Assembly: GCF_023273855.1 (NCBI RefSeq)
Contig: NZ_CP096884.1
Span: forward strand, 2,604,001 to 2,668,000
Reading direction: 5' to 3'
DNA from: Seonamhaeicola sp. ML3
GTDB lineage: Bacteria; Bacteroidota; Bacteroidia; Flavobacteriales; Flavobacteriaceae
DNA length: 64,000 nucleotides
Made by a program: the position numbers and the translations under genes. The notes below the pieces were generated by a model. It searched no databases, was not told the DNA's origin, and was given only the letters and a program-made list of their open reading frames with translations. Positions 15,727-34,354 of this stretch are shown here, in pieces (positions within the stretch are counted from its first letter, which is position 1; each line of letters starts with the position of its first letter).

Positions 15727-15729
15727 GTT

Positions 15730-16425: not shown

Positions 16426-17041
16426 TCATAGTATGCATAGAGTCGTTTGTATTTCGTTTATAGTGCTTTTGTTCTTTTCATGTAAACATGGAGAAGGAGA
16501 GTACCACGGTGTAACAGACAAAATCAAAGCTGAAAGCGAGAATTATCATGGTATATCCTTGTCTTCTGAAGCTTATTTGGAAGGTGTTGAAACCATGGAG
16601 ATTACAGAAGGAGAGCATACCTTTTTAATCCCCGAAAGAAAGCGTCAAATTAAATCATTTGCTTGTACCGAGTGTCATTCTAAACCATTATCGCAACTAC
16701 AAAGTAAGGATGGTAAGAAAGCGCATTGGGATATTAAGTTGCACCATGCCAATGAAAATACCATGAATTGTGCTACTTGTCACGATGGAAATAATATGGA
16801 TAACCTTAAAAGTTTAACAGGTAACAGTATCGATTTTAATAACAGTTATAATTTGTGTAACCAGTGTCATACCAAACAATTTGAGGATTGGAAAGGCGGC
16901 GCACATGGGAAACGCATTGGAGGTTGGGCGCCACCAAGAGCATCCATGACTTGTGTGAATTGTCATAATCCGCACAAACCTCATTTTGAGAAGAGATGGC
17001 CTGCACGGTTTAACACACAAAAAATAAAAGAAAGAGAATAG
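16418..17041 (+). CDS. tetraheme cytochrome c lipoprotein of the nap operon
   Basis: The 207-residue precursor has a lipoprotein signal ending FFSC near residue 22 (counted from the ATG at 16418; an ATG at 16433 is also possible). Four heme motifs follow: CTECH, CATCH, CNQCH and CVNCHNPHKPHF, with several extra His as possible distal ligands. It resembles small multiheme cytochromes of the NapM/NrfB/NrfH sort in layout rather than any one family. It overlaps napB by eight bases and precedes the Fe-S subunit by two. It probably relays electrons between the Fe-S/NrfD module and NapB. Confidence 0.85.
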   Translation: MNNHSMHRVVCISFIVLLFFSCKHGEGEYHGVTDKIKAESENYHGISLSSEAYLEGVETMEITEGEHTFLIPERKRQIKSFACTECHSKPLSQLQSKDGKKAHWDIKLHHANENTMNCATCHDGNNMDNLKSLTGNSIDFNNSYNLCNQCHTKQFEDWKGGAHGKRIGGWAPPRASMTCVNCHNPHKPHFEKRWPARFNTQKIKERE

Positions 17042-17043
17042 GT

Positions 17044-18129: not shown

Positions 18130-18144
18130 TAATCAGTTAATGAG

Positions 18145-19362
18145 ATGAGACGATTTAAAGTTTTTAAAAGTTTAGTAAGAGATAGTTTAGATACCATAAC
18201 ACACGGTTCTAGAAAGTACCATTTATGGATGGCGGCATTAACCTTTATGATGTTAGTGGGTATGTATTGTTATTCCATTCAGCTAAATGAAGGGCTAAGC
18301 GTTACTGGAATGACAGATAGGGTTAGCTGGGGATTATATATTTCAAATTTCACTTTTCTGGTGGGGGTTGCAGCTGCAGCAGTAATGCTCGTTATGCCAA
18401 CCTATGTGTTAAAAGATATTGATTTTAAACAAGCTGTTTTAATAGGTGAAGGTTTGGCAGTAGCTGCATTAGTCATGTGTTTAGCTTTTGTAATTGCTGA
18501 TATGGGTGGGCCTTCTGTTTTATGGCATATGATTCCAGGGATTGGTGTTTTTAATTTTCCGAATTCCATGTTAACCTGGGATGTTATTGTGCTTAATGGG
18601 TATTTGTTTATTAACATTACGATACCTCTATATATTCTTTTCAGGCACTACCAAGGAAAAGAAGCGAAATCTAAAGTTTATATCCCAGGAGCGTTTATAT
18701 CGGTATTTTGGGCAGTGGCGATTCATTTGGTTACGGCATTTTTATATCAAGGTTTACAAGCAAGACCTTTCTGGAATAATGCCTTGTTAGGACCTCGTTT
18801 TTTGGCCTCAGCATTTGCAGCTGGACCAGCTTTAATAATTTTAGTTTTGGCTGTGATAAGGTCGAGTACACCATTTAAAATTCAAGACAAAACCATTAAG
18901 AAAATAGCAATGGTGGTTACTGTGGCGGCTCAGATTAATTTAATTATGCTTATTTCTGAATTGTTTAAGGAGTTTTATGCACCTACACACCACAGTGAAA
19001 GTGCCTATTATCTTTTCTTTGGTTTACACGGAAAAGATGCTTTGTTACCCTGGATTTGGACGGCCATACCATTGAACGTTTTAGCTACTGTAATGTTGAC
19101 CTTCCACAAGCTCAGGAACAATTTTAAAGTCTTATACTTTGCTTGTTTTATATTGTTCATTGCTATTTGGATTGAAAAAGGCTTCGGTTTAATTGTTCCT
19201 GGTTTTATTCCCGGACCTTATGGTAAAATAGCCGAATATATGCCCACAGGAATTGAAATAGGGGTTACGCTAGGAATTTGGGCCCTTGGCGCTTTTGTGT
19301 TTACCATTTTAGCTAAAACAGCAATAGGTATTGAAATAGGAAAACTACGTTATAAGAAGTAG
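18145..19362 (+). CDS. NrfD/PsrC-type membrane quinol oxidoreductase subunit
   Basis: The 405-residue integral membrane protein has about nine or ten hydrophobic segments, starting at residues 30-46 and 68-88. Landmarks are SWGLYISNFTFLVGVAAAAVML, ADMGGPSVLWHMIPGIGVFNFPNSMLTWDVIVLNGYL and, later, HHSESAYYLFFGLHGKDALLPWIW. NrfD-type subunits bind menaquinol in the membrane and pass electrons to a periplasmic ferredoxin-type partner. As the last gene of the nap operon it probably replaces NapC or NapGH as quinol dehydrogenase. Confidence 0.88.
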   Translation: MRRFKVFKSLVRDSLDTITHGSRKYHLWMAALTFMMLVGMYCYSIQLNEGLSVTGMTDRVSWGLYISNFTFLVGVAAAAVMLVMPTYVLKDIDFKQAVLIGEGLAVAALVMCLAFVIADMGGPSVLWHMIPGIGVFNFPNSMLTWDVIVLNGYLFINITIPLYILFRHYQGKEAKSKVYIPGAFISVFWAVAIHLVTAFLYQGLQARPFWNNALLGPRFLASAFAAGPALIILVLAVIRSSTPFKIQDKTIKKIAMVVTVAAQINLIMLISELFKEFYAPTHHSESAYYLFFGLHGKDALLPWIWTAIPLNVLATVMLTFHKLRNNFKVLYFACFILFIAIWIEKGFGLIVPGFIPGPYGKIAEYMPTGIEIGVTLGIWALGAFVFTILAKTAIGIEIGKLRYKK

Positions 19363-19413: not shown

Positions 19414-22400
19414 CTATCTCAAAATAGTTATGTATCCAGAGTGTGACCTATTGGTGCCATCGTTTAGTTGAAAGTAGTAATAATAGTTTCCAGATGGGAG
19501 AGGTTTCCCCTTATGCATTCCGTTCCAAGTATTGTTATAACCCGTAGCACGGTAAACTATATTTCCCCATCGGTTGTATATTGTTAGCGTATTGTTAGAA
19601 AATTTTTCGATATTTTTAATGAAAAAGGTATCGTTACGACCATCACCATTTGGTGTCATGGTATTAGCGAAAAATGGCATACAGTTATTGTTTGTATCCG
19701 TATCGTCATTGTCCATTCTAATAGAAAACGTGCTTAATGAATAACATTGATTGGAAGTGATGTCTTCTGCTCGAGCATAAATGATAAATTCTACACCTGC
19801 ATTAAGATTTATTTGCTCAATACTATTTATACCTTGTATGGCATCACCTTCAAAGAGATGATAACTTAACTTGATATTCGATTGGTCTATGCCATCAAAA
19901 ATCTTAGCGTTTAGTTGGGATAAATTATATTCAGTATTACTTTCATTCAAAGAGCACAGATGAATATCCTCAATAGGATTTACTATTGGGGTATTCACAA
20001 TATTAAGTGAAAACATAAACACTTCGACACAGCCATTTTGATTAGTAATTCTGGCATAGATTTGTTGAGAACTTGAAAGGCTTTTAAATCGTAAAGGTAA
20101 TGGACGTAGACCATTGAAAGCCTCTGGTGATGCTAAGTGAAAACTAACTGTTGGTAATTCGAGATTGTTGTCTGCCAACCCTTCAAGAATATAATTTTTT
20201 TGAGCTGCTAAATCAAATATTGGTGTTTTGGTTGCATCCGGATTTCTACATAGTATCATATCTTGAGGTGTGTTATATCCGGTAATACCGTTTCCTAAAG
20301 TAAAAGATTTTGTTACGCTTAAATCTCTGGTTCCATCGTTTACAGTGAGTGTAACATTATAGGCTTTGTTTAAATCATATCGATGTGTTGGATTTTTATC
20401 GTTACTAATAGGAGAATTATCTCCAAAATCCCAATAGTAGGTTAGGTCGTCGCAACTATTTGATAAGTTCGTAAAACTTACAACATCGCAATTAATTTCA
20501 AATTCATAATCAGGTATTGTTTCAGTAATATCTAGCGTGATTTCTTTACTTTGAGTAAAGATCTGAACACCATCATTAATAGTTAGAGTTACATTAAATG
20601 AACCAGAAGATGTGTAGGTGTGTTTGGGTCTTACTTCATTACTGGCTGTACTGCCGTCACCAAAATCCCAAATATAACTTTCTGCTCTAGAGCATGTTTT
20701 AGACTCATCTGTAAAAGTAACATCAAGGCAATTAACAAGGTAACTAAAATCTGTTTTGGTTTCTATATTGATGTCTAGAGTCTCTGTGTGTGTTGATAAG
20801 GATGTCCCCGGATTATTTATATTGCTAATTGTTAATATAATGGTGAAAGTCCCAGAAGCGGTGTAAATGTGTGTTAATGAGAGTTCGCTATTATTTGTAC
20901 TTACAATAGAGCTGCCGTCACCAAAATCCCAATGGTATACTAAATCAGCAAAATTATCTATTGAAGCTCCACAAATATCACTAGTGTTGTTTATAGTTAC
21001 AGTTTCACAGTTTAAAAAAGAAGTTGAAAATTTGGCTGTTATAAAAGTGTTATACTCATAGGATTTTGATTCGGTAAGGCCATCTTGTGACCTCACAGTT
21101 AAGGTGATGATATATGTTGAGTTATCATTGGTAACAGGAAAACTATGTGAAGGGTTAGTTTCTGTGCTAGTAGTCCCATCCCCAAAGTCCCAATGGTAGG
21201 AGAGTCCACCCTTGCAATAATCTGATAGGTTTTTTAGTTGTATGGTATTGCATATGCTATTACCCATTGTGGCTATTGTTTCGATTTCAAAATCTGCTTT
21301 AGGAAAAGGTGGGCCATTAGAATTTATAACTTTTACGCTGAATGTTTCAGACGGACCATCACAACCGTTTTCATCTCTTGCAATTATAGTATACGTTGTA
21401 TCCTGAGTTGGGCTCAATATTGCAGAATTTCCGGCAGGTGCTATGTCAACGAACTCACCAGGATTAGTTGGGTCCGGCCTTGTATACCGAAAGTCACCAG
21501 TGTGATTCCCTGTGGGTTTTACCAAAACACTCCCGCCTAAGCAAACTTCTTGATCGGGAATCTTATCTATGGTTGCTTGTGGTGTTGGTTCTAGGGTTAT
21601 GGATAGTTTGCTTAAACACCCTGTGTTAGATGTAAAATCAACGCTGTAGGTTTCACCATATTTAGCATTTTCAATTGTGATACTGGGCGTTCCGTCTCCA
21701 TTGGACCAATCGTAACTGGAGAATCCTTCGGGAGCATTCAGTGTCACTGTGTCACCGTTATTACATAAATCTTCTACTTGTATTTTTAGAGGTTCTAAAG
21801 AGGCATCTACATAGGCATATCCACCATGTTCTCCAAGGGTACAATCTAAAGCTATGAATTCAATAGTAATATCTTCACCGATGAAAGGACTTAGGTCTGC
21901 ACTTTCGGTAGTCCAAGGTAGTATTTGGAATTTACCACAATTTATAAAACCCTTATTCAGGGCATTAGGTCCTGAGAAAGCCTCATACCTACCACATGGT
22001 ACAATATTACCATTAGAATCCTTGATATTAGCTACGAATTTTGGCTGGTCTCGTCTTTTGTGTCCTGGGTCTTCTAAAACTACGGCGTAACTGTATTTAA
22101 GTAATGTCGTATTTGGTGTTACTGTAAAAGTATGGCTAATCCTGGCAGCTTTATTTTCACCATCTAGGTTACCTATTCTTGCCGAAAAGCGACCACCAGT
22201 AAAAACTGTAGGAACATTTACAGGTGTTGGGAAACAATTTAAACCAATTTCGTCATAGCTCGGGCTTGAGGGACTCATTAATTTTATTTGTACTCCTAAG
22301 TCATTAGCAGGTCTGGTGTTCCAATCAATTGTTGTGGGATTAGATCTTACTCCTGTGTCCAAAATCCAATTATCGAAATTCCCAAACTCAAAATCTAAGT

Positions 22401-22482
22401 TTTCAGTTTGGGAAAAAGCAGTAGAAATTATTCCCAAAATGGGAATTAATAGCATTAATATTTTTTGTGGCTTCTTCATCAT
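19414..22482 (-). CDS. secreted PKD-domain protein with type IX sorting domain
   Basis: A large surface or secreted protein of 1022 residues, counted from the first of two adjacent ATGs. An N-terminal signal (MMKKPQKILMLLIPILGIISTAFSQ) is followed by a lectin-like region and a Gly/Asp-rich domain. At least four PKD domains follow (YHWDFGDGTTS, YHWDFGDGSSI, YIWDFGDGSTA, YYWDFGDNSPI). A C-terminal gliding-motility/type-B sorting domain (TMTPNGDGRNDTFFIKNIE...YNRWGNIVYRATGYNNTWNG...YITILR) marks it for type IX secretion. The start overlaps the stop of the SprF-like gene (ATGA), so the two are coupled. Adhesion is likely. Confidence 0.9.
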   Translation of the reverse strand: MMKKPQKILMLLIPILGIISTAFSQTENLDFEFGNFDNWILDTGVRSNPTTIDWNTRPANDLGVQIKLMSPSSPSYDEIGLNCFPTPVNVPTVFTGGRFSARIGNLDGENKAARISHTFTVTPNTTLLKYSYAVVLEDPGHKRRDQPKFVANIKDSNGNIVPCGRYEAFSGPNALNKGFINCGKFQILPWTTESADLSPFIGEDITIEFIALDCTLGEHGGYAYVDASLEPLKIQVEDLCNNGDTVTLNAPEGFSSYDWSNGDGTPSITIENAKYGETYSVDFTSNTGCLSKLSITLEPTPQATIDKIPDQEVCLGGSVLVKPTGNHTGDFRYTRPDPTNPGEFVDIAPAGNSAILSPTQDTTYTIIARDENGCDGPSETFSVKVINSNGPPFPKADFEIETIATMGNSICNTIQLKNLSDYCKGGLSYHWDFGDGTTSTETNPSHSFPVTNDNSTYIITLTVRSQDGLTESKSYEYNTFITAKFSTSFLNCETVTINNTSDICGASIDNFADLVYHWDFGDGSSIVSTNNSELSLTHIYTASGTFTIILTISNINNPGTSLSTHTETLDINIETKTDFSYLVNCLDVTFTDESKTCSRAESYIWDFGDGSTASNEVRPKHTYTSSGSFNVTLTINDGVQIFTQSKEITLDITETIPDYEFEINCDVVSFTNLSNSCDDLTYYWDFGDNSPISNDKNPTHRYDLNKAYNVTLTVNDGTRDLSVTKSFTLGNGITGYNTPQDMILCRNPDATKTPIFDLAAQKNYILEGLADNNLELPTVSFHLASPEAFNGLRPLPLRFKSLSSSQQIYARITNQNGCVEVFMFSLNIVNTPIVNPIEDIHLCSLNESNTEYNLSQLNAKIFDGIDQSNIKLSYHLFEGDAIQGINSIEQINLNAGVEFIIYARAEDITSNQCYSLSTFSIRMDNDDTDTNNNCMPFFANTMTPNGDGRNDTFFIKNIEKFSNNTLTIYNRWGNIVYRATGYNNTWNGMHKGKPLPSGNYYYYFQLNDGTNRSHSGYITILR

Positions 22483-23492
22483 AAGGAATATTGTGGACAA
22501 GCACAAAGTAATTTTCTAGGGTTAAACCGGTATCCAATAATTATTTCGTGAGAGCCAGACTGTTGTGTGCTAAAATCCGCGGTAATCCAGTCGTAAGAAT
22601 AGCTTAAAAGTAGGTTTTCTGTAAGGCGTAAACCCAAAAAGCCTATAATGGCTTCCTCGTTACGATAAGCTAAACCTCCCCAGAACTTATCATTATAAAC
22701 TGTTTTAATGCCAGCATCCCATTGTATTGGAGAGTTTTTTACCGTTTTTAATAAAGAGAAAGGTACAACTGTGAGAGCGTCGTTAATTGAAATTCTGCTA
22801 CCTAGAAGCAGGTTGTAACTAGGTAATAAAGATTCTTCATTTGATGTATCTGATAATCGAATTTCTTTGTTCAAAATTTGATTTGCTGCAATGCCTAAAA
22901 AAAGATACTTTGAGTAGGCATATAAACCAAAACTTAAATCAAAGTTTAATACAGAAATATTTTGAACAAGTGGGTCGATGGGGTTGTCGAATAAAACAAC
23001 TTTTCTATCGTCGAATCTAAATTGAGAAACACCTACAAAAGTTCCAAACGATATAAACCATTCTTCTGAGACCTTAAGATGATAAGCATAGCTTCCATAG
23101 AGTCCATTTTGAGAAAGTGGTCCACTAGTATCTGTGTAAAGAAAAACACCCAAGCCATGATGTGTAGTGCCCTCGTTTGGTAAATAACTTGCTCTAGAAC
23201 GATACAGAGAACTATTAACGCTAAACGTAGATGTTCTAGGGGCGCCATCGAAGCCCAGCCATTGGTTTCTGTGAGAGGCATTTACATCCACATAATTCTC
23301 AACTCCTGTCATTGCTGGATTTATAACAAACGGATTCTGTAAATATTGAGAAAATTGAGGAGTTTGTTGTGAATATACTGATATACAGAATGATATAATA
23401 AAAACAAAAAATTGAATCCAGAACAGAAATCTCTTAATTCTTCCTTGAACTAGTTTTTTAAGTAGGTTTAATATAAAAAAATGACCGTACAT
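22479..23492 (-). CDS. PorP/SprF family type IX secretion membrane protein
   Basis: This 337-residue outer-membrane beta-barrel protein of the PorP/SprF family helps export or anchor type-B sorted partners such as the PKD protein encoded next. After a signal segment (about residues 20-42) the mature part begins QQTPQFSQYLQNPFVINPAMTGV, the family's conserved opening. Barrel strands such as GLGVFLYTDTSGPLSQNGLYGSYAYHL and LLLSYSYDWITADFS...GSHEIIIGYRF follow. Its stop overlaps the downstream start codon. It is divergent from the FNR-like gene. Confidence 0.9.
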   Translation of the reverse strand: MYGHFFILNLLKKLVQGRIKRFLFWIQFFVFIISFCISVYSQQTPQFSQYLQNPFVINPAMTGVENYVDVNASHRNQWLGFDGAPRTSTFSVNSSLYRSRASYLPNEGTTHHGLGVFLYTDTSGPLSQNGLYGSYAYHLKVSEEWFISFGTFVGVSQFRFDDRKVVLFDNPIDPLVQNISVLNFDLSFGLYAYSKYLFLGIAANQILNKEIRLSDTSNEESLLPSYNLLLGSRISINDALTVVPFSLLKTVKNSPIQWDAGIKTVYNDKFWGGLAYRNEEAIIGFLGLRLTENLLLSYSYDWITADFSTQQSGSHEIIIGYRFNPRKLLCACPQYSL

Positions 23493-23707: not shown

Positions 23708-24457
23708 ATGGTTGCTTCTACGCCTTATTTAAAATCAAAACGAGGATCGACTGGCAAGGTTTCCTGTGGACTTTGTGAGAACGCTAAATGCCTTATAAAA
23801 CGGAATTATAATTCTTTTGAAAACACTGAATTTTTAGAAAGTAAAAATGAGATATTCTGTAAAAAAGGACAACAGTTTGTAATTGAAGGCGCCCCTGTAA
23901 ATGGTTTGTTTTTTATACTAGGAGGAAAAGTAAAAGTTTTTAGAACAGGTATTAACGGTAAGGAGCAAATAGTTCGTTTTGCAAAAGAAGGCGAGATAAT
24001 TGGTCACCGTGGTTTTGGTACCGAAGAGTATTATTCTATAGGTGCTGTTGCTCTAGAAGATAGTTTATTGTGTTATTTTTCTAAAGATGCTTTACAGAAG
24101 GCACTGCGCGATAACCCTCAGTTTACCTACGATATGATGCTTTTTTATGCCAATGAGCTAAACAAAAGTGAGTCTAAGGTAAAATCATTATCCCAAATGA
24201 CCGTTAGGGAACGTGTTGTAGACACTTTACTCTACATAAATAGAAAATTTGGTGAATTAAATGGCTTTTTAAATTTGCCTTTAAGCCGAAAAGAATATGC
24301 CGACTATGCCGGTACTTCTGAAGAACAAGTCATTAGAATTTTTTCTGCACTAAAAAAGGAAGGATTAATTAGTGCTAGTGGAAAAAAAATTGGTATCAGC
24401 GATATCGATTTACTGCGCCGCGAAATAAGCGAACACAACTATTTCTTAGATAGTTGA
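23708..24457 (+). CDS. FNR-like oxygen-sensing Crp-family regulator
   Basis: This 249-residue Crp/Fnr regulator is probably oxygen sensitive. Cys20, Cys23, Cys28 (SCGLCENAKC) and Cys122 (LEDSLLCYFS) stand almost exactly where E. coli FNR has its [4Fe-4S] ligands (20, 23, 29, 122). A cyclic-nucleotide-fold domain spans about 45-150. The winged helix follows, with LPLSRKEYADYAGTSEEQVIRIFSALKKEGLI; it keeps the Glu and Arg of the FNR recognition helix but has Ile in place of Ser. It sits between the nap and globin operons and is the natural candidate for the FNR-like boxes in this window. Confidence 0.9.
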   Translation: MVASTPYLKSKRGSTGKVSCGLCENAKCLIKRNYNSFENTEFLESKNEIFCKKGQQFVIEGAPVNGLFFILGGKVKVFRTGINGKEQIVRFAKEGEIIGHRGFGTEEYYSIGAVALEDSLLCYFSKDALQKALRDNPQFTYDMMLFYANELNKSESKVKSLSQMTVRERVVDTLLYINRKFGELNGFLNLPLSRKEYADYAGTSEEQVIRIFSALKKEGLISASGKKIGISDIDLLRREISEHNYFLDS

Positions 24458-24607: not shown

Positions 24608-24640
24608 TAATTTTGTTTTCAGATAAGTATTAATACTTAT
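24608..24640 (+). promoter_or_regulatory. globin promoter with downstream palindromic operator
   Basis: TAATTTTG (24608-24615) fits the -7 consensus TAnnTTTG. Directly after it, 24623-24640 is the perfect 18-base palindrome ATAAGTATTAATACTTAT, covering the likely transcription start. A nearly identical palindrome stands at the same distance after the -7 element of the nitrate-transporter operon. This placement suits a repressor. A further palindrome, TGTATATACA (24575-24584), is centred 35.5 bases upstream of the end of the -7 element. Confidence 0.6.
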
Positions 24641-24681: not shown

Positions 24682-25095
24682 ATGGAACAAAAAACAATAA
24701 CACTTGTACAAGAATCTTTTGAAAAAGTAAAACCTATAGCCCCTGCCGCTGCAGAGATTTTTTACGGTAAACTATTTGAATTAGATCCAGAGTTGAAACC
24801 ACTTTTTCCTAGTGACGAGGGAGCTATGAAACAACAGGGTAACAAACTAATGTCCATGCTAGCGGCAGCTGTGGCTGGTTTGAGTAATCTTGATGCTTTA
24901 ATACCAATCCTTCAAGATTTAGGTAAACGTCATGTAGAGTATAAGGTAGAGGCTTTTCATTACGAAACTGTGGGTTCTGCACTTCTGGGTACATTAGAAG
25001 CTGGCTTAGGAGACGAGTTTACTTCTGATGTAAAAGCAGCTTGGACCTCAGTATATGGTACTATGGCAGATGTCATGATTAAAGCAGCATATTAA
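24682..25095 (+). CDS. single-domain bacterial globin
   Basis: The 137-residue globin lacks the reductase domain of flavohemoglobin. It aligns with the globin domain of Hmp and Vitreoscilla hemoglobin: LVQESFEKVKPIAPAAAEIFYGKLFELDPELKPLFP at the start, and LGKRHVEYKVEAFHYETVGSALLGTL with the proximal His of KRHVEY near residue 84. Such globins bind O2 and NO. NO dioxygenation needs a reductase, which could be the flavoprotein encoded three genes downstream. It is first in a five-gene operon next to nitrate-respiration genes, so NO or nitrite stress is the likely context. Confidence 0.93.
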   Translation: MEQKTITLVQESFEKVKPIAPAAAEIFYGKLFELDPELKPLFPSDEGAMKQQGNKLMSMLAAAVAGLSNLDALIPILQDLGKRHVEYKVEAFHYETVGSALLGTLEAGLGDEFTSDVKAAWTSVYGTMADVMIKAAY

Positions 25096-25119
25096 TAACT
25101 AACATAAAAAGAAAGAATT

Positions 25120-25941
25120 ATGGAATTATCTAAAATTAAAAATCAGCTAATAGCACTAACAGTATTGGTAACCCTTTCGGTTTCTTGTGGTGGTGTTCCA
25201 GAGGAAAAAGCAACGGCAGCTGCCGAAGAAAAAGCGTTTTCGGTAGAAGAGGTACTTGAGATGGTGGCCAAGGAAAACGATGTTACAAGAACGCTTTATA
25301 CGAAGGCCATTGTTGGTAAGGGTAAAAAGCAAGGCATGAAATTCGATGAAGATTGGAGAAAAGATGATGTCGAAGCAGGACCGCTACCAGCTTTATTTTT
25401 AAGGGGTGTAGCAACAAGCATTAGAAAAAGTCCAGTACCACTTGGTTTGTACCTTGGGTCTGACTTCCCGGTAAATGCCGCGAATAAATTTGAAGGAAAA
25501 CAAGCGGAACTATTTGCTGAAATTAAAAAAGATCAAAAACCTCAGTTTTTTTATGATGAAGACCAAAAATTGCATACGGCAATGTTTGCAGATTTAGCAA
25601 GTGCTGGCGCTTGTGTATCTTGCCATAACGACCATCCTCAAACAGCTAAATCTGATTGGAAATTGGGAGATGTTATGGGGGCAACAACATGGCAATATCC
25701 TAAAGATTCACTAACATATAAAGAAACAGTAGCGGTATTGAACTCTTATGCCAAAGGTACAGTAGATATATATATGGAATACTTAGATGAAATCGAAGCG
25801 TTCAAAGAAAGCGATAAACCAGAAATTGGTGAAAAATGGCCAGCAGAAGGTAACTATCTACCAACGGCAGAAGTTTTTCTGGATAGCGTAAGAAAGTTAG
25901 CGTCTTACGAAACAATGAAACAACTAGTAGCTGTTAAATAA
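25120..25941 (+). CDS. mono-heme lipoprotein with DUF3365/Tll0287-like domain
   Basis: The 273-residue precursor has a lipoprotein signal ending SVSCGG near residue 23, then a domain resembling DUF3365 (Tll0287-like), a PAS-like fold with one c-type heme. The heme motif is CVSCHNDHP near residue 166, inside ADLASAGACVSCHNDHPQTAKSDWKLGDVMGA. It would be anchored on the periplasmic face of a membrane. Its role, whether heme sensor, gas-binding protein or electron acceptor, is not known from sequence. It lies 25 bases after the globin gene. Confidence 0.8.
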   Translation: MELSKIKNQLIALTVLVTLSVSCGGVPEEKATAAAEEKAFSVEEVLEMVAKENDVTRTLYTKAIVGKGKKQGMKFDEDWRKDDVEAGPLPALFLRGVATSIRKSPVPLGLYLGSDFPVNAANKFEGKQAELFAEIKKDQKPQFFYDEDQKLHTAMFADLASAGACVSCHNDHPQTAKSDWKLGDVMGATTWQYPKDSLTYKETVAVLNSYAKGTVDIYMEYLDEIEAFKESDKPEIGEKWPAEGNYLPTAEVFLDSVRKLASYETMKQLVAVK

Positions 25942-26001
25942 AGACATTTTGTTTAGTGTTAAGATTACAATCTAGTGGCTCAATGTCCTGCATAATGGGA
26001 T

Positions 26002-26535
26002 ATGAGCCAAGATTGTAATTCAAAATTAATTAGTGTAGCATCAACAATAAATATGGTATTAACTAATAATAAATCTACAGTCTTAGGTTTGTTGTTATTC
26101 ACAGCATTCTTTTTACAGTTTATATTTAGTATTCAGTGGGGCTGGTTATTAGAGTTACAGCAAGATCAGATGTACAGAAGGTGGTCTGGCCTTGCGTTGG
26201 CAATTATCATTGCTTTTCAATGGCTTTTGTCAGTAGTAAGAACGAGTAAAAAGTTGAGGAAACATGCACTCTCAATGCAAAACATACATAAATGGCTCGG
26301 GGCAATTAGTCCATTGATATTCTATGTTCATAGTATGGATATGGGGTATGGCTATTTGTTGTTATTATCATATATATTCTTTTCCAACACTATTCTGGGG
26401 TATTTAAACCTAGATGTTATCAAAAATGATAGTGAAGCTCTATTTAAAGGCTGGATGATAAGTCATGTGGCCTTATCTCTAATTATTACCATTCTAATGA
26501 TATTTCATATTGTTATGGTGTTTTATTATAAATAG
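26002..26535 (+). CDS. bis-heme b membrane protein, minimal cytochrome b core
   Basis: This 177-residue protein has about five hydrophobic helices. His96 and His110 bracket one helix and His155 and His169 another. Both pairs are spaced H-x13-H, the arrangement that holds two stacked b hemes in cytochrome b, ferric reductases and NADPH oxidases. No longer family name can be assigned with confidence. The flavin/2Fe-2S reductase gene starts five bases downstream, so the two together resemble a ferric-reductase/NOX enzyme split in two genes. An internal ATG at 26053 is an alternative start. Confidence 0.75.
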   Translation: MSQDCNSKLISVASTINMVLTNNKSTVLGLLLFTAFFLQFIFSIQWGWLLELQQDQMYRRWSGLALAIIIAFQWLLSVVRTSKKLRKHALSMQNIHKWLGAISPLIFYVHSMDMGYGYLLLLSYIFFSNTILGYLNLDVIKNDSEALFKGWMISHVALSLIITILMIFHIVMVFYYK

Positions 26536-26540
26536 GAAGA

Positions 26541-27569
26541 ATGAAATTAGTAGTAAAAGATATAATCAAGGAGACTGATGATGCGGTAAGTCTTTGTTTT
26601 AAAAACGGAAACTTTTTTAAAAAGCTAAAGTACAAGCCTGGGCAGTTCTTAACAATACATGTGCCCATAGAAAAGAAAACCCACAAGAGAGCTTATTCGT
26701 TTAGTAGTAACCCCTATACAGACAAAGACTTAAAAATTACCATTAAGCGCGTAGAGAAAGGGTTGGTGTCCAATTATGTTCATGACTATTTAAAGGTTGG
26801 TGACAAATTAGAGGTTGATGATCCAGCAGGTTCGTTTTGTATTAGTCCAGAAAGTGAATCAAAGAAACAATACGTTTTATTTGCAGGCGGTAGTGGAATT
26901 ACACCTATGTTCTCAATAGTAAAATCCATATTAACCGAAGAGAAAGATTCTAAAGTTCTTTTGGTCTATGCCAATCAAAATATAGAATCTATTATTTTCC
27001 ATGACGAAATAAAGGCCCTTGAAAAGGATTATCCCGAAAATTTTGCTGTAGAGCATATTGTCTCCACTTATCAGGAATCTAAATTAAATTATCATAAAGG
27101 TCTAGCAACCCACGAACTTTTGGATGAGATATTTCTAAAACACGATTTAACATTCCAAGACCATAACTACATGATTTGTGGTCCTTTTGGTTATATGGAG
27201 AAAATCAAGGAAATTCTGAAAGATAACGGTATTACCAGAGATAAAATAAAACTTGAAGTTTTTAAAGCGCCTCAAGTTAAAGTATCTGGAAAGGATTTAA
27301 TTAGTGATGTTACTATAAAGTATAATGGGGAAAACCACGACTTACAAGTTAGAGGTGATAAATCCATTTTACGTCAGGCTATGTCTAATAATATCGTAAT
27401 CCCTTATTCTTGTCGCTCGGGCATGTGTTCCACTTGTAAAGCAAAATGTGTTGAGGGTGAAGTAAAAATGACAGATGGACATTTATTATCAGAAGACGAG
27501 GTAGCAAGTGGTGATATCCTTACTTGCATTACCTACCCGTTAAGCGAAAAAGTTGTAATAGAAATATAG
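26541..27569 (+). CDS. FAD/NAD(P) oxidoreductase with C-terminal 2Fe-2S ferredoxin domain
   Basis: This 342-residue soluble reductase is laid out like PaaE. An FAD-binding barrel (PGQFLTIHVP, RAYSFSSNPY) is followed by an NAD(P) domain (LFAGGSGITPMFS and MICGPFGYMEKIK) and a plant-type ferredoxin domain (YSCRSGMCSTCKAKCVEGEV, with the last ligand in LTCITYP). It takes hydride from NAD(P)H and delivers single electrons. The partner could be the adjacent heme b protein or the operon's globin. It follows the membrane-protein gene by five bases. Confidence 0.93.
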   Translation: MKLVVKDIIKETDDAVSLCFKNGNFFKKLKYKPGQFLTIHVPIEKKTHKRAYSFSSNPYTDKDLKITIKRVEKGLVSNYVHDYLKVGDKLEVDDPAGSFCISPESESKKQYVLFAGGSGITPMFSIVKSILTEEKDSKVLLVYANQNIESIIFHDEIKALEKDYPENFAVEHIVSTYQESKLNYHKGLATHELLDEIFLKHDLTFQDHNYMICGPFGYMEKIKEILKDNGITRDKIKLEVFKAPQVKVSGKDLISDVTIKYNGENHDLQVRGDKSILRQAMSNNIVIPYSCRSGMCSTCKAKCVEGEVKMTDGHLLSEDEVASGDILTCITYPLSEKVVIEI

Positions 27570-27585
27570 ACCAAATTATTGTTGC

Positions 27586-28296
27586 ATGTTAAAAGTGAAC
27601 CCTTTACGAAAAAGACAAATAATAGGAAGTCTCGTAGGCTTGGTTGTTGGAGTTACCTTATTTTATGTGTTAACACTAGAATCAACTGAAAAATATGTCT
27701 CCATAGGCCCTATGAACACAGGACACCAAGATTTATCATGTTTTACATGTCATGCAGATGCAAAAGGTAATCTTATGCAGCAACTACAATCTAATGTTTC
27801 TCATGCTTTTGGGGCTAGGGAAGAGAGTGTAGATTTTGGTACTCAAGATGTAACTGTAGATAATTGCTTGGAGTGTCACGATAGGCCTAATGATAGACAC
27901 CCTACATATCGATTCTCGGAACCAAGATTTAAAGATGCGATAAAAAATATAGATGCTACAACCTGTATTACTTGCCATACTGAACATAAAGAAGAACGGG
28001 TATCTGTAGCATCTATAGATTATTGCATGAATTGTCATCAAGAATTAGTCGTTGAAAATGATCCATTAGATATGTCTCATGAAGAAATTATAGCTAAAGC
28101 CCAATGGACCACTTGTATTCAATGTCACGATTTTCATGGTAACCATCGTTATGAAGTTCCAGAAAAAATGAAGGACACCATTCCTATGCTACATGTTCAA
28201 AAGTATTTTGATGGTGGTGAGGACCCTTACGGAACAGACAAAAAATATATTGCACTTTCTCAAGAAGAGTGGATAAAACAATTAAATAAAAACTAA
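27586..28296 (+). CDS. membrane-anchored pentaheme cytochrome c
   Basis: The 236-residue protein has an N-terminal membrane anchor (about residues 12-29) and a periplasmic part with five CxxCH motifs: CFTCH, CLECH, CITCH, CMNCH and CIQCHDFHGNH. Additional His residues could be distal ligands. The layout recalls cytochrome c3/NapC-type electron carriers, but no precise family is claimed. As the last gene of the globin operon it may carry electrons from the b-heme protein into the periplasm. Two hairpins follow it. Confidence 0.85.
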   Translation: MLKVNPLRKRQIIGSLVGLVVGVTLFYVLTLESTEKYVSIGPMNTGHQDLSCFTCHADAKGNLMQQLQSNVSHAFGAREESVDFGTQDVTVDNCLECHDRPNDRHPTYRFSEPRFKDAIKNIDATTCITCHTEHKEERVSVASIDYCMNCHQELVVENDPLDMSHEEIIAKAQWTTCIQCHDFHGNHRYEVPEKMKDTIPMLHVQKYFDGGEDPYGTDKKYIALSQEEWIKQLNKN

Positions 28297-28380: not shown

Positions 28381-28407
28381 AAAACCTGTCTTTTGACAGG
28401 TTTTTTT
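28381..28407 (+). terminator. intrinsic terminator of the globin operon
   Basis: AAAACCTGTC-TTTT-GACAGGTTTT forms a ten-base stem with one mismatch at most, followed by further T. It ends the pentaheme-cytochrome transcript before the nitrate-transporter promoter. Confidence 0.8.
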
Positions 28408-28466: not shown

Positions 28467-28499
28467 TATATTTGCCTTGTAATTAAGTATAAATACTTA
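28467..28499 (+). promoter_or_regulatory. nitrate-transporter promoter with downstream palindromic operator
   Basis: TATATTTG (28467-28474) matches the -7 consensus. TAAGTAT-AA-ATACTTA (28484-28499) follows and spans the likely transcription start. The arms are identical to those of the palindrome in the globin promoter, and the offset differs by about one base. Shared control of both operons by one repressor is the simplest reading. Confidence 0.6.
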
Positions 28500-28522: not shown

Positions 28523-29905
28523 ATGAAAACACTGATCAAAAAATCAATTTGGACTTTACCATTAGCAGCTTTGCTTTTTGCTTGTGGTGGAAAAGAGAAG
28601 AAGAAAGATTCAGTTACAGAAGAAGTTGTAACTGAAACAACTAAAACATTAGAGATAGAAAAACCACAGTTAACTTTTGGTTTTATAAAATTAACAGATA
28701 TGGCACCTTTAGCAATTGCTAAAGAAAAAGGATTCTTCGAGGATGAAGGTTTATTTGTGTCTGTTGAAGCACAATCGAACTGGAAAAATGTTTTAGACCG
28801 AGTAATCGATGGTCAATTAGACGGTTCTCACATGTTAGCTGGTCAGCCAATTGCAGCCGGTGCTGGTTTTGGTCGTCAGGCTGAGTTAGTAACGCCATTT
28901 TCAATGGATTTAAATGGTAATGGTATTACCGTTTCTAATGATGTGTGGTCTAAAATGAAACCAAATGTACCTAAAGGAGCAGATGGTAAGCCAGTACATC
29001 CAATTAAAGCCGATGCTCTTAAACCTGTAATCGAAGATTACAAAAGTACAGGTAAAGCATTTAAAATGGGTATGGTATTTCCAGTATCTACTCATAACTA
29101 CGAAATTAGATATTGGTTAGCTGCAGCTGGAATTCACCCGGGAATGTATACTGCAGATAACGTACAAGGGCAGGTAGATGCAGAAGTATTATTATCTGTT
29201 ACACCTCCACCACAAATGCCAGCTACACTTGAGGCAGGGACTATTTACGGTTACTGTGTAGGTGAGCCTTGGAATCAGCAAGCGGTATTTAAAGGTATTG
29301 GTGTACCTGTAACTACAAACTACGACATCTGGAAAAATAACCCAGAAAAAGTATTTGTAATGACAAAGAAGTTTATTGACGAAAACCCTAATACAGCAGT
29401 AGCAGTTACTAAAGCATTAATTAGAGCTGGTAAATGGTTAGATGAGCCAGGAAATAGAGCAGAAGCTGTTAAGATTTTATCTATGTCTCAATACGTTGGT
29501 GCTGATGAGGTTGTATTAGCAAACTCAATGACAGGAACGTTTGAGTTCGAAAAAGGAGATAAACGTGAAATGCCAGACTTTAACGTATTTTACAAGTACA
29601 ATGCAACTTATCCATTCTATTCAGATGGTATCTGGTTCTTAACTCAAATGAGAAGATGGGGACAGATTCCTGAGTCTAAACCAGCTGGATGGTACGAAGA
29701 AACTATAAAAGATATTTACAGACCTGATATCTGGGAAAAAGCGGCTAAGTTATTAGTAGCAGAAGGAAAGATTCCTGCTAGTGATATTCCTGCAACAGAT
29801 GGATATAAGCCTGCAACTACAGACTTTATAGACGGAACCAAGTATGATGCTAAAGATCCTATTGGATACATCAATAGCTTTTCAATTGGTAATAAAGACA
29901 AATAA
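28523..29905 (+). CDS. nrtA: CmpA/NrtA-type nitrate ABC transporter substrate-binding lipoprotein
   Basis: This 460-residue periplasmic binding protein has a lipoprotein signal ending LLFACGG near residue 22 and then a charged linker. The body resembles NrtA/Cmp[87 protein letters not shown]. These bind nitrate/nitrite or bicarbonate. Nitrate is favoured here by the neighbouring nap genes. It heads the transporter operon. Confidence 0.87.
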
Positions 29906-30001
29906 TTTTTTGAGATTATAAAATTTGCCTAACAGGCATTAGCAATAATGCCTGTTAAGGTAAATAACACAAAACATATACACTAAACAAACACTTGAAA
30001 A

Positions 30002-31237
30002 ATGAAAGACTCTATTATTAAAATCGTTAAGCGTATCGGGTTAGGTTTTTTAGAGCCTTTAATAAGATTAATTGCTGGAGAAGAGCCTAAAAAAAACACC
30101 AAAGAAGTCTTAAATAAAATTGGGGCGCCAATTCTAGCTATAATTATCTTTTTGGTATTATGGACTTCAGGGGCCAACTCATTATATAATAGTCTTGCTG
30201 AATCTAAGATCGAAAAAGCGAGAGAAGTAGGAGGAGATGCAGAAGCCGAGCGAGTTGAAGCATTGATCAATTCTGCAAAGGAAAAACTAGACGGAGACTT
30301 TATTATTAGCGATGATGCAGCCGATTTCAAGTTGTTGTCGGAACCTGGGACACATGCTGTTGCAGTTGAAAACGACAATGGTACCTTCGATATACAATAC
30401 GGTTTAACTCCAGATGAGAAAAAAGAAGTACCTGTTACTTTACCTTCACCAAGCCAAACAAAAAATGCCTTTTATACCTTATTAACAGATTACAAAATAG
30501 TAAGTCATGATAAAAAAGCTTTTAAGGAAAAAACCAAGGCGTTAAATAAGAAGCGTAAGGCTGAAGGCAAAGATCCAATCACTTATACGGGTAGACCTTC
30601 TTTCGTGGATCAAATTGTAACAAGTTTAAAGACAGTATTCGCAGGTTTTTTATTAGCAATTTTTGTAGCGGTTCCTATAGGTATTGTTATAGGTTTAAGT
30701 CCAACATTAAGAGCAGCATTTAACTGGGTTATTCAAATTTTTAAACCGGTTTCTCCAGTAGTTTGGTTATTGTTGGTAACTATGATTGTTACTACGCTAC
30801 TAAGAAATTCTACAGGAGATAGTTCGTTTATCATTTCATTTATTTCAGTAGGATTATGTTCCATGTGGGCAACTTTGGTTAATACCGCCATGGGTGTTGC
30901 TACTGTAGATACAGACTACATAAACGTTGCAAAAGTTTTAAAACTGGGAGGGTCTCAAAAGATATTTAAAGTAGTACTTCCTGCGTCTTTACCATTAATA
31001 TTTACGGGTTTAAGAATTACGTTATCTGTAGCTTGGATGGTACTTATCGCTATTGAGTTATTGGCACAATCACCTGGTTTAGGATCTTTCGTTTGGGAGG
31101 AATTCCAAAACGGAGCAAACGATTCGAACTCTAAGATAATTGTAGCAATGTTCGTAATTGGTCTTATTGGTTTTGCACTAGATAAAATCATGTTGTTTGT
31201 ACAGAACTTAGTGTCTTTTGAAAAAGAAAGTATTTAA
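30002..31237 (+). CDS. nrtB: NrtB-type ABC transporter permease with long insertion
   Basis: The inner-membrane permease of the nitrate-type importer has 411 residues, where NrtB proteins are usually about 280. A first membrane helix (about 38-56) is followed by a hydrophilic insertion of roughly 130 residues (about 60-200), probably periplasmic. The standard binding-protein-dependent permease domain then follows (TVFAGFLLAIFVAVPIGIVIGLSP, KPVSPVVWLLLVTMIV), with the coupling-loop motif YINVAKVLKLGGSQKIFKVVLPASLPLIFTGLRITLSVAW. Confidence 0.87.
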   Translation: MKDSIIKIVKRIGLGFLEPLIRLIAGEEPKKNTKEVLNKIGAPILAIIIFLVLWTSGANSLYNSLAESKIEKAREVGGDAEAERVEALINSAKEKLDGDFIISDDAADFKLLSEPGTHAVAVENDNGTFDIQYGLTPDEKKEVPVTLPSPSQTKNAFYTLLTDYKIVSHDKKAFKEKTKALNKKRKAEGKDPITYTGRPSFVDQIVTSLKTVFAGFLLAIFVAVPIGIVIGLSPTLRAAFNWVIQIFKPVSPVVWLLLVTMIVTTLLRNSTGDSSFIISFISVGLCSMWATLVNTAMGVATVDTDYINVAKVLKLGGSQKIFKVVLPASLPLIFTGLRITLSVAWMVLIAIELLAQSPGLGSFVWEEFQNGANDSNSKIIVAMFVIGLIGFALDKIMLFVQNLVSFEKESI

Positions 31238-31257
31238 TCCTAAAAAGACAGAAACCT

Positions 31258-32103
31258 ATGGCATTTTTAGAATTAAATAACATTTATAAAACCTATAACC
31301 CGAACAAGGAGTATAAAGGTGAGATATTAGACAATATTAACCTTCAAATTAACGAAGGGGAGTTTGTTGCAATCGTTGGGTTCTCCGGAAGTGGTAAAAC
31401 TACACTGGTGAATTTAATTAACGGTTTGCTTAAACCAACCGAAGGAGAAGTGCTTTTTAAAGGAGAAAAAGTAGAAGGTACAAGTCATGAAAGAGGCGTA
31501 ATTTTTCAAAACTATTCTTTATTACCATGGTTATCTGTGTTTAGTAATGTGGAAATGGCAGTGAAAGAAGCATTTAAAAGTGACTCAAAAAAAGAGATTA
31601 AGGAACGTGTAGAAAAATTTGTTGATATGGTAGGTTTAACACCGGCTATTAACAAATTTCCAAAAGAATTATCTGGAGGAATGCGTCAAAGAGTTTCTGT
31701 AGCAAGAGCTCTAGCTATGGATCCTGAAATGATCATTATGGATGAGCCTTTAGGAGCATTGGATGCTTTAACCAGAGGAAACCTTCAAGATGAGATTTTA
31801 AAGATTTGGGAAACCAATAAGCGCACGGCATTGTTGATTACTAACGATGTGGACGAGGCAGTTTACATGGCCGATAGAATTATTCCTTTAAAACCAGGTC
31901 CTAAAGCAACATTAGGTCCCGAATTTAAAGTAAATATTGAAAGGCCAAGGGATAAGACTAGTCTTAATGATAATCCAGAATACAAGAAAACACGTAATGC
32001 TATCATTGCGTATTTAATGGATTTAGGTGATGAAAAGGCCGCAGCAACAAGCGATGTGGAATATGAATTACCAGATATTCAACCAAGAGATTATAGATGG
32101 TAA
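31258..32103 (+). CDS. nrtC: NrtC/D-type ABC transporter ATPase, Asn in the H-loop
   Basis: The 281-residue ATPase has Walker A GFSGSGKTT, signature LSGGMRQRVSVARA, and Walker B MIIMDEPLGALDALTR. The switch loop reads LLITNDVDEAVYMAD, so the usual His is Asn. The C-terminal tail of about 50 residues is family-like, and there is no fused binding-protein domain as in cyanobacterial NrtC. The next gene encodes a second ATPase, and the two would form a heterodimer under the permease. Confidence 0.87.
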   Translation: MAFLELNNIYKTYNPNKEYKGEILDNINLQINEGEFVAIVGFSGSGKTTLVNLINGLLKPTEGEVLFKGEKVEGTSHERGVIFQNYSLLPWLSVFSNVEMAVKEAFKSDSKKEIKERVEKFVDMVGLTPAINKFPKELSGGMRQRVSVARALAMDPEMIIMDEPLGALDALTRGNLQDEILKIWETNKRTALLITNDVDEAVYMADRIIPLKPGPKATLGPEFKVNIERPRDKTSLNDNPEYKKTRNAIIAYLMDLGDEKAAATSDVEYELPDIQPRDYRW

Positions 32104-32123
32104 CCCTTTAAAATGTAAGAGAA

Positions 32124-32936
32124 ATGAGCGCAGTAAAAGAACATTATAAAATAGAAAAGTTTCCTTCTAACGAGGTTATGTTAGATTTGGAAAACTTAAA
32201 GAAAGTATATCCTACACCAAAGGGCGACTATGTTGTATTAGAACATCTAGATCTTCAAATTCGAAAACAAGAGTTTATAACTATAATTGGACATTCTGGA
32301 TGTGGTAAAACCACTATGCTATCTATGATTGCAGGTTTAAACCCTATTTCAGATGGAAAAATAAAGGTGTTAGGGTCAAGTATAAAAGGTCCAGGGCCAG
32401 ACAGAGGGGTTATTTTTCAGGCACCGAGTTTAATGCCATGGTTGACCACTTTCGAAAATGTTATGTTGGGAGTTAAAAAAGCATACCCTGATGCAACAAA
32501 AAAGCAAAAACAAGATATCTGTAAATATTACTTGCATAAAGTAGGTATGGATAATTCCTTGAATAAAAAAGCATCAGAGATTTCACAAGGAGAGCAACAA
32601 CGAGTAGGTATAGCAAGAGCATTTGCCATTAAACCTAAAGTGTTATTGCTTGATGAGCCTTTCGGAATGTTGGATTCTTTAACAAGAGGACAATTACAGG
32701 ATGTATTGATAGATGTCTGGAACAAGGAAAAGATTACAGCTGTTATGATTACGCACGATGTGGACGAGGCCATCTTTTTGGCAGATCGTGTAGTAATGAT
32801 GACCAGCGGCCCAAGAGCAAAAATTGGAGATGTACTATCGATAGATTTTGAACGTCCTAGGTCCAGAAAAGCAATACTTGATCATGATGATTATTACAAA
32901 TACAGAAAGCATTTAATTGACTTTTTGGAACACTAA
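32124..32936 (+). CDS. nrtD: NrtD-type ABC transporter ATPase
   Basis: The second ATPase of the importer has 270 residues. Walker A is GHSGCGKTT, Walker B LLLDEPFGMLDSLTR, and the H-loop MITHDVDEAIFLAD keeps its His. Its signature motif is altered to ISQGEQQRVGIARA rather than LSGGQ. It is 20 bases downstream of the first ATPase gene. Confidence 0.87.
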   Translation: MSAVKEHYKIEKFPSNEVMLDLENLKKVYPTPKGDYVVLEHLDLQIRKQEFITIIGHSGCGKTTMLSMIAGLNPISDGKIKVLGSSIKGPGPDRGVIFQAPSLMPWLTTFENVMLGVKKAYPDATKKQKQDICKYYLHKVGMDNSLNKKASEISQGEQQRVGIARAFAIKPKVLLLDEPFGMLDSLTRGQLQDVLIDVWNKEKITAVMITHDVDEAIFLADRVVMMTSGPRAKIGDVLSIDFERPRSRKAILDHDDYYKYRKHLIDFLEH

Positions 32937-33076: not shown

Positions 33077-34354
33077 ATGAGAAAACAATACGTTTTAATA
33101 GCAATTTTAGCTTTAGTTGTACAATTCGCACAAGCACAGTTTACCTTAGATGGAGAGTTTAGACCACGTACAGAGTACAGACATGGTTTTGGAAGTATTT
33201 TACCGGAATCTGCAGAGCCAGGTTTTGGTATTTCTACAAGAGCAAGACTAAATGCAGGTTTTGCCACAGATGCTTACAAAGTATACATCAGTCTTCAGGA
33301 TGTTATGGTTTGGGGTGAAAACAGACAAATTTTACCTTTTGACCAAAACAATTCATTCGCTATTTTTCAAGCATGGGCAGAAATTAAACTAGGTGAAGGT
33401 TGGTCTACTAAATTAGGTCGTCAAGTTTTATCTTACGATGATCAACGTATACTAGGTGGTTTAGATTGGGCTCAACAAGGACGTAACCATGATGCGGCAA
33501 TGATTAAATACAAAAAAGATAAATTTATCTTAGATTTTGCATTTGCATTTAATCAAGACAACCAACAGCCAACAGGTTTCCAATCAGTAGGAAACACGTA
33601 TAACACTACAGGTTTCTTTTCATACAAGACTATGCAAATGCTTTACTTAAAGCAAGCTTGGGAGAAGTTTACAGGTAGCTTATTATTACTTAACAATGGT
33701 TTTCAAAACTTTGATGGTTCTGGAGCTCAAGATGGTTTGAGTAGCCTACAAACTTTAGGAACGCACTTAGTTTACAAATCTGGAGCATTTACAGCTGCTG
33801 CCAATGCATTTATCCAAACAGGAGAGCGTCAAGGAGAAGTAAAAGTTAAAGGTGCTTACTTAGTAGGTTTAGATTTAAAAGTTAAAACATCAGATAAAGT
33901 TACTTTAGGTGGTGGTTTAGAAATCATTAGCGGTAACGATGGTGGTGCCGGTGAAACTGGAGCTTTCTTCCCATTATATGGAACAAACCACAAGTTTAAT
34001 GGTTTAATGGATTATTTCTACGTAGGTAACCATGCCAACTCTGTAGGTTTATTTGATGTGTATGTAAACTCTAACTTTAAATTGGGTGCTAAGTCTAGTT
34101 TAATGGTTGCATTCCATAACTTTAGCGGAGAGCAAGATTTACCTAGCGGGGAAAGTGCTTTGGGATCAGAACTTGATTTAGTTTTCAAAAAAGTATTTAA
34201 TGGATTTGCTTTAGTAGCAGGTTACTCACACATGTTCCCTTCAGATGGTATGTACGAGCTTAAAGGTGTAGCTGAAAGTGATGCTGCTAGCGGACAAAAC
34301 TGGGCTTGGGCGATGTTGGTTATTAAGCCTAAATTCTTAAACACAGCAAAATAA
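33077..34354 (+). CDS. outer-membrane porin, alginate-export-like family
   Basis: The 425-residue beta-barrel protein has a clear signal peptide (MRKQYVLIAILALVVQFAQAQ). The mature protein begins FTLDGEFRPRTEYRHGFGS and shows TRARLNAGF and the conserved AWAEIKLGEGWSTKLGRQVLSYDDQRILGGLDWAQQGRNHDAA segment, recalling alginate-export/porin families. Alternating strands fill the rest. It has its own FNR-like promoter right after the nitrate transporter, so a role in nitrate or nitrite passage across the outer membrane is a reasonable inference. Confidence 0.82.
   Translation: MRKQYVLIAILALVVQFAQAQFTLDGEFRPRTEYRHGFGSILPESAEPGFGISTRARLNAGFATDAYKVYISLQDVMVWGENRQILPFDQNNSFAIFQAWAEIKLGEGWSTKLGRQVLSYDDQRILGGLDWAQQGRNHDAAMIKYKKDKFILDFAFAFNQDNQQPTGFQSVGNTYNTTGFFSYKTMQMLYLKQAWEKFTGSLLLLNNGFQNFDGSGAQDGLSSLQTLGTHLVYKSGAFTAAANAFIQTGERQGEVKVKGAYLVGLDLKVKTSDKVTLGGGLEIISGNDGGAGETGAFFPLYGTNHKFNGLMDYFYVGNHANSVGLFDVYVNSNFKLGAKSSLMVAFHNFSGEQDLPSGESALGSELDLVFKKVFNGFALVAGYSHMFPSDGMYELKGVAESDAASGQNWAWAMLVIKPKFLNTAK

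Follow-up and report, generated by a model that had tools for sequence, protein, structure and literature searches.

In Bradyrhizobium, loss of either the globin or the flavoprotein of the narK-bjgb-flp-nasC operon raises sensitivity to nitric oxide (NO), and a function in NO detoxification has been proposed (PMC4724949). Bacterial NOX proteins have been defined with His-X12/14-His pairs, and MsrQ-Fre is a split form of the same design (PMC5676040). The heme of Tll0287 carries a Cys axial ligand (5B82); Cys/His ligation is not required across the DUF3365 family (PMC12889525). We analyzed a five-gene operon that joins modules of these kinds in a 64,000-nucleotide stretch of DNA from Seonamhaeicola sp. 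ML3 (GCF_023273855.1, contig NZ_CP096884.1, positions 2,604,001 to 2,668,000 of the forward strand), referred to below as the window; coordinates are window positions unless a contig position (C1) or a locus (L) is given. The five open reading frames, here called GLB, TLL, MEM, RED, and PHC, lie on one strand at 24682–28296, where an earlier note on this DNA had placed them:

24682–25095, + strand: GLB, single-domain globin of the Vgb / flavohemoglobin heme-domain type, no reductase domain (Pfam Globin, E 5.8e-19)
25120–25941, + strand: TLL, mono-heme c lipoprotein of the Tll0287/DUF3365 (sCache_heme) type (PF11845, one CXXCH, lipobox)
26053–26535, + strand: MEM, membrane protein of 160 aa, probably of the ferric-reductase type, with two putative b hemes (H79/H93, H138/H152; placed by homologue starts, PF01794, and invariant His)
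26541–27569, + strand: RED, flavin reductase of the FNR type that ends in a plant-type 2Fe-2S domain and resembles PaaE/Hcr (Pfam FAD_binding_6, NAD_binding_1, and Fer2)
27586–28296, + strand: PHC, pentaheme cytochrome c with an anchor at its N terminus (five CXXCH)

The closest functional precedent is the Bradyrhizobium narK-bjgb-flp-nasC operon, which likewise encodes a single-domain globin and, as a protein of its own, a NAD(P)H flavoprotein and is tied to assimilatory nitrate reduction. Unlike the locus studied here, the Bradyrhizobium operon has no membrane b-heme protein, pentaheme cytochrome c, or heme-Cache lipoprotein, and in strain ML3 NasA and NarK are encoded elsewhere in the genome, sharing a palindrome with the operon (NasA with 1 mismatch). 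In MsrQ-Fre, too, a heme-b membrane protein and a separate flavin reductase work as a pair, through which a periplasmic acceptor receives electrons from NAD(P)H, whereas RED has an extra 2Fe-2S domain, the acceptors would be c-heme proteins, and the operon is a fixed one with a globin. No MsrP molybdoprotein partner was found between the genes of the unit in 80 loci, and nap, present at 16 of them, forms a separate cluster. SpNOX shares with MEM two His-X13-His pairs and probably a PF01794-type membrane part served by a NAD(P)H and FAD donor, but here the membrane and flavin parts are two proteins, MEM being the membrane part only, and the FAD motif is RxYS instead of the NOX HPFT type. GLB resembles the heme domain of the flavohemoglobin Hmp and RED its FAD/NAD half; in contrast to Hmp, they are separate proteins and RED carries a 2Fe-2S domain that Hmp lacks. 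TLL resembles Tll0287/sCache_heme (5B82; PMC12889525), scoring over the Pfam cut-off and having 5B82 as its best model match, but differs in having no axial cysteine and a long C-terminal extension. Each module taken singly is known, while neither their combination nor its role within nitrate metabolism has been described; the earlier note knew of no named system with this gene set, and the literature that we searched yielded none. With the chances in our view evenly poised, we read the locus as a NAD(P)H-driven redox unit that would act against NO or reactive nitrogen in nitrate-using Bacteroidota.

Conservation of the five-gene unit

Conservation was assessed in 199 Flavobacteriaceae genera searched with MEM (sample 1), which gave 16 clear homologues, and in a scan of GTDB contigs, which gave 80 loci (sample 2); some genomes are common to both. 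The five genes stand in the same order at all 16 loci of sample 1, of which the window is one, and TLL-MEM-RED-PHC is intact and ordered in 80/80 public loci, among them loci of Tamlana, Algibacter, Seonamhaeicola, Flavivirga, Maribacter, Zobellia, Aquimarina, Polaribacter, Wenyingzhuangia, and others. MEM, TLL, and close orthologues of GLB (>70% identity) occur in exactly the same 16 of the 199 genera, and the pairwise distances among the five proteins correlate at 0.68–0.90. All five genes are also together in Flammeovirga kamogawensis, a member of another class, in the order hemA-GLB-TLL-MEM-RED-PHC on a 640-kb replicon (L151:9170-14336, from a plasmid collection), where GLB, TLL, MEM, and PHC show 47–65% identity and every ligand is kept. 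The hemA gene heading this copy suggests a private heme supply. No further complete unit was found in a phylum sample (MEM profile, 395 genomes) or in a class sample (TLL profile, 203 genomes). Because the order is kept in 80/80 loci and all five genes recur in Flammeovirga, we regard it as virtually certain that they form a real conserved unit, in an arrangement far beyond chance. The earlier note had proposed such a unit and named a failure of joint conservation as one result that would speak against it; the genes proved to be conserved together.

GLB precedes the other four genes in 71 of the 80 loci. Since it is missing from the remaining nine operons, the globin is the most dispensable part and the core consists of four genes. 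A globin-centred system was considered, and is weakened by these globin-less operons and by the plasmid-borne relatives of GLB, which mostly have no adjacent nitrate genes. The genome of strain ML3 encodes a second single-domain globin (C1:1123786-1124184), 62% identical to GLB, with no nitrate gene recognised next to it. In another genome (G180, L132:10300-14406), a single-domain globin gene whose product is 47% identical to GLB lies directly upstream of NasA, at a locus without MEM, RED, PHC, or TLL; this arrangement is an independent hint toward an NO role.

The annotated start of MEM (26002) is too early, because its homologues begin at the ATG at 26053. With the corrected start, the gap between TLL and MEM becomes 111 bases instead of 60, outside the range of 5–60 bases given in the earlier note. 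RED lies directly downstream of MEM; the median distance between the ends of the two matches is 12 bases.

Cofactors and a putative electron path

The protein types that the earlier note assigned agree with our results: a globin without reductase domain, a mono-heme DUF3365-like lipoprotein, a bis-heme b membrane protein, a FAD/NAD(P)/2Fe-2S reductase, and a membrane-anchored pentaheme cytochrome. GLB (137 aa) matches Pfam Globin and has no reductase domain, and its closest solved structures are the bacterial globin domains 3s1i and 3ubc and Vitreoscilla hemoglobin (1vhb). The MEM protein of the window, taken by itself, scores under every Pfam cut-off (PF01794, 13 bits against a cut-off of 28), and Ferric_reduct (PF01794) is matched by 59 of 60 MEM orthologues (E ≤ 1; best E 1.9e-6). 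MEM contains two H-X13-H pairs, which fit the His-X12/14-His filter for bacterial NOX (PMC5676040), and since these four paired His are invariant in 80 sequences, the designation bis-heme b is reasonable. The structural model (pLDDT 87) is a six-helix membrane-type bundle, and its comparison with SpNOX by VIA gave a Z of 8.3, a value that bundles in general reach, with a root-mean-square deviation (rmsd) of 3.5 over 114 aligned residues at 20% identity. Cytochrome b6f, SpNOX, b561, and designed bundles all fell within about 2 Z of one another in the VIA comparisons. Foldseek returned only chance helical bundles, and a sequence search of solved structures (E up to 10) gave no match to MEM. As such assorted bundles score alike, similarity of fold is not enough to assign MEM to a family, and the case is made by the His pattern together with the profile.

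RED (342 aa) is nearest to the NCBIfam models TIGR02160 (PaaE) and PRK10684 (Hcr), both under their cut-offs. Its invariant features are the RxYS motif (RAYS, R50-S53), GSGITP (residues 117–122), the CGP motif, and the four 2Fe-2S cysteines (C-x4-C-x2-C...C). The NOX FAD motif H(PSA)F[TS][LIMV] is absent from RED, and MEM and RED are separate genes in 80/80 loci, in contrast to the single chain that defines a NOX. For these two reasons we conclude that MEM-RED is not a NOX, although it would work like one.

PHC (236 aa) contains five CXXCH motifs and six further His, all invariant in the 80 sequences. PHC is likely a wire rather than an enzyme, because these motifs and His suffice for five bis-His hemes. 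A NapC/NrfH-type quinol dehydrogenase was rejected as an identity for PHC, which has no match to PF03264 (Cytochrom_NNT) at E ≤ 0.1 and only a weak match to NrfH; so was a NrfA pentaheme nitrite reductase, because the catalytic CXXCK is missing and all five motifs are CXXCH. In Aquimarina, PHC is followed by a gene for a small lipoprotein with a CXXCH motif (L101:12264-12617), and several loci (L090, L093, L094) have split CcsBA genes for cytochrome c maturation on the downstream side.

TLL (273 aa) scores 32.6 bits with PF11845 (E 1.3e-7), over the cut-off of 24.1, and no other protein of this genome matches that family. For its model (pLDDT 79), 5B82 (Tll0287) was the only strong Foldseek match (probability score 0.97) and the top row by VIA (Z 8.6, rmsd 4.1, 138 aligned); a sequence search of solved structures (E up to 1) gave no match. 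The cysteines of TLL are the lipid-anchor C23 and C165/C168 of the CXXCH motif, with C165/C168/H169 invariant, and the Flammeovirga TLL has the same set, its only Cys beyond the motif being that of the lipid anchor. Cys/His axial ligation of the Tll0287 type is thus absent, since there is no spare Cys for such a bond, and the sixth site would be open or occupied by another residue. A long conserved extension follows residue 200. At a mean pairwise identity of 0.80, the mature part of TLL is better conserved than any of the other four proteins (0.61–0.77). In a 2026 preprint, a Cys-less DUF3365 protein fused to a signalling part bound NO tightly, whereas a stand-alone DUF3365 protein bound NO weakly, even without the axial Cys, and was judged redox-related (PMC12889525). 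With the fused and the stand-alone proteins differing in this way, NO binding by TLL is a fair hypothesis rather than a result.

The cofactors of the five proteins suit the transfer from NAD(P)H through the membrane to periplasmic hemes that the earlier note envisaged. RED would draw electrons from NAD(P)H via FAD and the 2Fe-2S cluster and pass them to the b hemes of MEM, across the inner membrane to PHC, and on to TLL. Judging from these cofactors, such an inside-to-outside path, with its predicted direction and partners, is probable. The periplasmic arm would end at TLL, in which the cysteine needed for an axial bond of the Tll0287 type is lacking; this putative terminal site is probable because mature TLL has the highest identity of the five proteins and because NapA and NrfA are both missing as acceptors from three operon genomes. 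RED probably also reduces soluble GLB, forming a two-piece flavohemoglobin, and GLB would carry out NO dioxygenation, which turns NO and O2 into nitrate at the expense of NAD(P)H, in the cytoplasm. The most likely task of the whole unit would be to remove, or to allow survival of, NO and related reactive nitrogen arising from nitrate and nitrite reduction.

Nitrate metabolism and the shared palindrome

We compared the presence of the operon with that of nitrate genes across the 199 genera, in which NasA was found in 46, NrtA in 38, NapA in 37, and NrfA in 27. All 16 operon carriers encode a cytoplasmic assimilatory NasA together with NrtABCD (NasA 16/16, p = 6e-12; NrtA 16/16, p = 1e-13; these and the following p-values are uncorrected for shared ancestry), while NapA and NrfA were each present in 11 of the 16, and three carriers (G110, G173, G177) have neither. 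Among the NrtA-positive genomes, the operon was found in 11/12 with NrfA vs 5/26 without it (p = 4e-5, uncorrected) and was also associated with NapA (p = 8e-4, uncorrected), a pattern that would fit a role in species with nitrate or nitrite respiration as well. Across the 80 loci, the neighbours include Nrt genes (68), NasA-like genes (23), NirB (17), Nap (16), and NrfHA (8), and none of these was present in the locus sequence examined in 9/80. These results support that the unit belongs to the nitrate metabolism of marine Bacteroidota. The earlier note saw the operon between nap genes and a nitrate transporter; nap itself is not a strict companion. A dedicated nap link was rejected as the main link, because NapA is absent in 5/16 operon genomes and the operon occurs in 0/20 genomes with NapA but without NasA.

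The surroundings of the operon in the window comprise:

24624–24639, no strand: TAAGTATTAATACTTA, a 16-bp palindrome to which a regulator of the operon may bind (exact copy)
28484–28499, no strand: the palindrome again, here before NrtA (≤1 mismatch at this gene in 54/60 loci)
23708–24457, + strand: CRP/FNR-family regulator directly upstream of the operon, outside the transcription unit (Pfam cNMP_binding and HTH_Crp_2)
28381–28404, + strand: intrinsic terminator-like hairpin at the operon end (10 pairs, then a T run)
13402–19362, + strand: neighbouring nap cluster with NapA, NapB, a multiheme c, a NapG-type Fe-S protein, and NrfD (variable context, not required)
28523–32936, + strand: neighbouring nitrate ABC transporter NrtABCD (context, outside the operon)
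33077–34354, + strand: neighbouring porin-like Alginate_exp protein (context, outside the operon)

The palindrome TAAGTATNNATACTTA is exact both before the operon and before NrtA, which bears out the shared promoter architecture that had been claimed, and 66/80 loci have it before the operon with ≤1 mismatch, vs 0.15 per 80 in shuffled sequence. It lies about 50 bases before the first operon gene in most loci, and at 100–190 where TLL comes first. Exact copies occur only three times in this genome, before the operon, NrtA, and a NarK-type transporter, and copies with a single mismatch precede NirBD, a NarL-like regulator gene, and NasA. Single-mismatch copies also lie before sdhC of the succinate dehydrogenase operon, before gltA (citrate synthase), and upstream of acnB (C1:1643250, 1954416, 2475283); these copies at tricarboxylic acid cycle genes may reflect chance or a wider respiratory regulon. 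The CRP/FNR-family protein, present at 59/80 loci with CxxC-x(3-6)-C in 59/59 and the N-terminal C20/C23/C28 invariant, is probably a regulator of the operon, and as readers of the palindrome this FNR-type protein and the NarL-like regulator are both candidates. A NarX/NarQ-like histidine kinase and a NarL-like response regulator lie within the NirBD cluster (L128:8896-11819).

The terminator that the earlier note placed after PHC corresponds to the terminator-like hairpin, although the scan that gave it found no more hairpins than in shuffled sequence. Between nap and the regulator, the window carries genes for a CHU_C protein of the type IX secretion system, which has PKD domains, and for PorP/SprF (19414–23492), an insertion missing from most related loci. 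NasA in this genome (1173 aa; L128:12484-17441, C1:2568483 onward; L032:3016-4449) has a C-terminal NirB-like NAD(P)H-oxidoreductase half; the gene after it encodes 479 aa with no NCBIfam match, and its relatives show a partial sulfite/nitrite reductase half domain and a rubredoxin domain. NasA with its NirB-like half and this next gene could form an unusual assimilatory nitrite reductase.

Competing explanations and implications

The genomic context suggests, at about equal chances for and against, a role in NO metabolism with NO as the substrate. Several observations weigh against this role and the reading built on it. The co-occurrence p-values are uncorrected for shared ancestry, the operon lacks the globin at nine loci, and the plasmid-borne GLB relatives mostly stand without nitrate genes. 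Among the annotated neighbours at the loci, no gene for a NO-specific enzyme was recognised, and the Flammeovirga copy has no annotated nitrate gene within 12 kb. The weak NO binding of the stand-alone DUF3365 protein is a further such point, and the fold matches of MEM, being matches to helical bundles, are weak evidence. Instead of NO defence, RED-MEM-PHC could be an electron donor for periplasmic respiration, feeding Nap and/or Nrf, directly or via TLL, by a non-quinol route, with the globin as a side gene. The adjacency of the operon to nap at 16/80 loci and to nrfHA at 8/80, and its tracking of NrfA and NapA among NrtA-positive genomes, would fit such a donor. We nevertheless hold it to be unlikely: G110, G173, and G177 carry the operon without NapA and NrfA, five operon genomes have no NapA, Nap is already served by a NapG/NrfD-type quinol route within its cluster and NrfA by NrfH, and the operon is absent from all 20 genomes that have NapA but not NasA.

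Equally improbable in our estimate is a general periplasmic redox or repair chain of the MsrPQ kind, in which PHC and TLL would keep hemes or proteins reduced or dump excess reductant, and the link to nitrate would come from a low-oxygen lifestyle and from regulation. Split FRD-FNR pairs such as MsrQ-Fre do supply periplasmic acceptors (PMC5676040), stand-alone DUF3365 domains were judged redox-related (PMC12889525), and both the Flammeovirga unit, with no annotated nitrate genes nearby, and the palindrome near-matches at sdhC, gltA, and acnB are consistent with it. Against this chain stand the 16/16 co-occurrence with NasA and NrtABCD, the exact palindromes at nitrate transport genes, and the globin in 71/80 operons. 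The signalling-fused DUF3365 domains that act as NO sensors (PMC12889525) raise the thought that TLL is a periplasmic NO or redox receptor whose redox state the other genes set, but TLL is a lipoprotein without a signalling domain and no signalling gene is a fixed neighbour at the loci, which makes a sensor unit very improbable. The more specific form of the NO reading, a NAD(P)H-powered transmembrane defence against reactive nitrogen in which the reductase serves both the globin and, by way of a two-piece NOX-like carrier in the membrane and the pentaheme wire, a periplasmic heme-Cache enzyme reacting with NO or nitrite, is possible as a new class of system, and we put it forward only tentatively.

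Marine Flavobacteriia play a major part in the degradation of algal biomass, and nitrate assimilation is found in many of them. How they cope with the NO that arises from nitrate use is little known, and database labels present the unit as loose parts: a globin, a DUF3365 protein, a hypothetical protein, a ferredoxin--NADP reductase, and a cytochrome c3 family protein. As a natural split NOX-like electron path with both halves and the acceptors in one operon, it is easily testable. The unit also offers a concrete hypothesis for the role of a stand-alone heme-Cache domain, and the transmembrane defence, if true, would be the first enzymatic role of the DUF3365 heme-Cache domain, as far as the literature searched shows.

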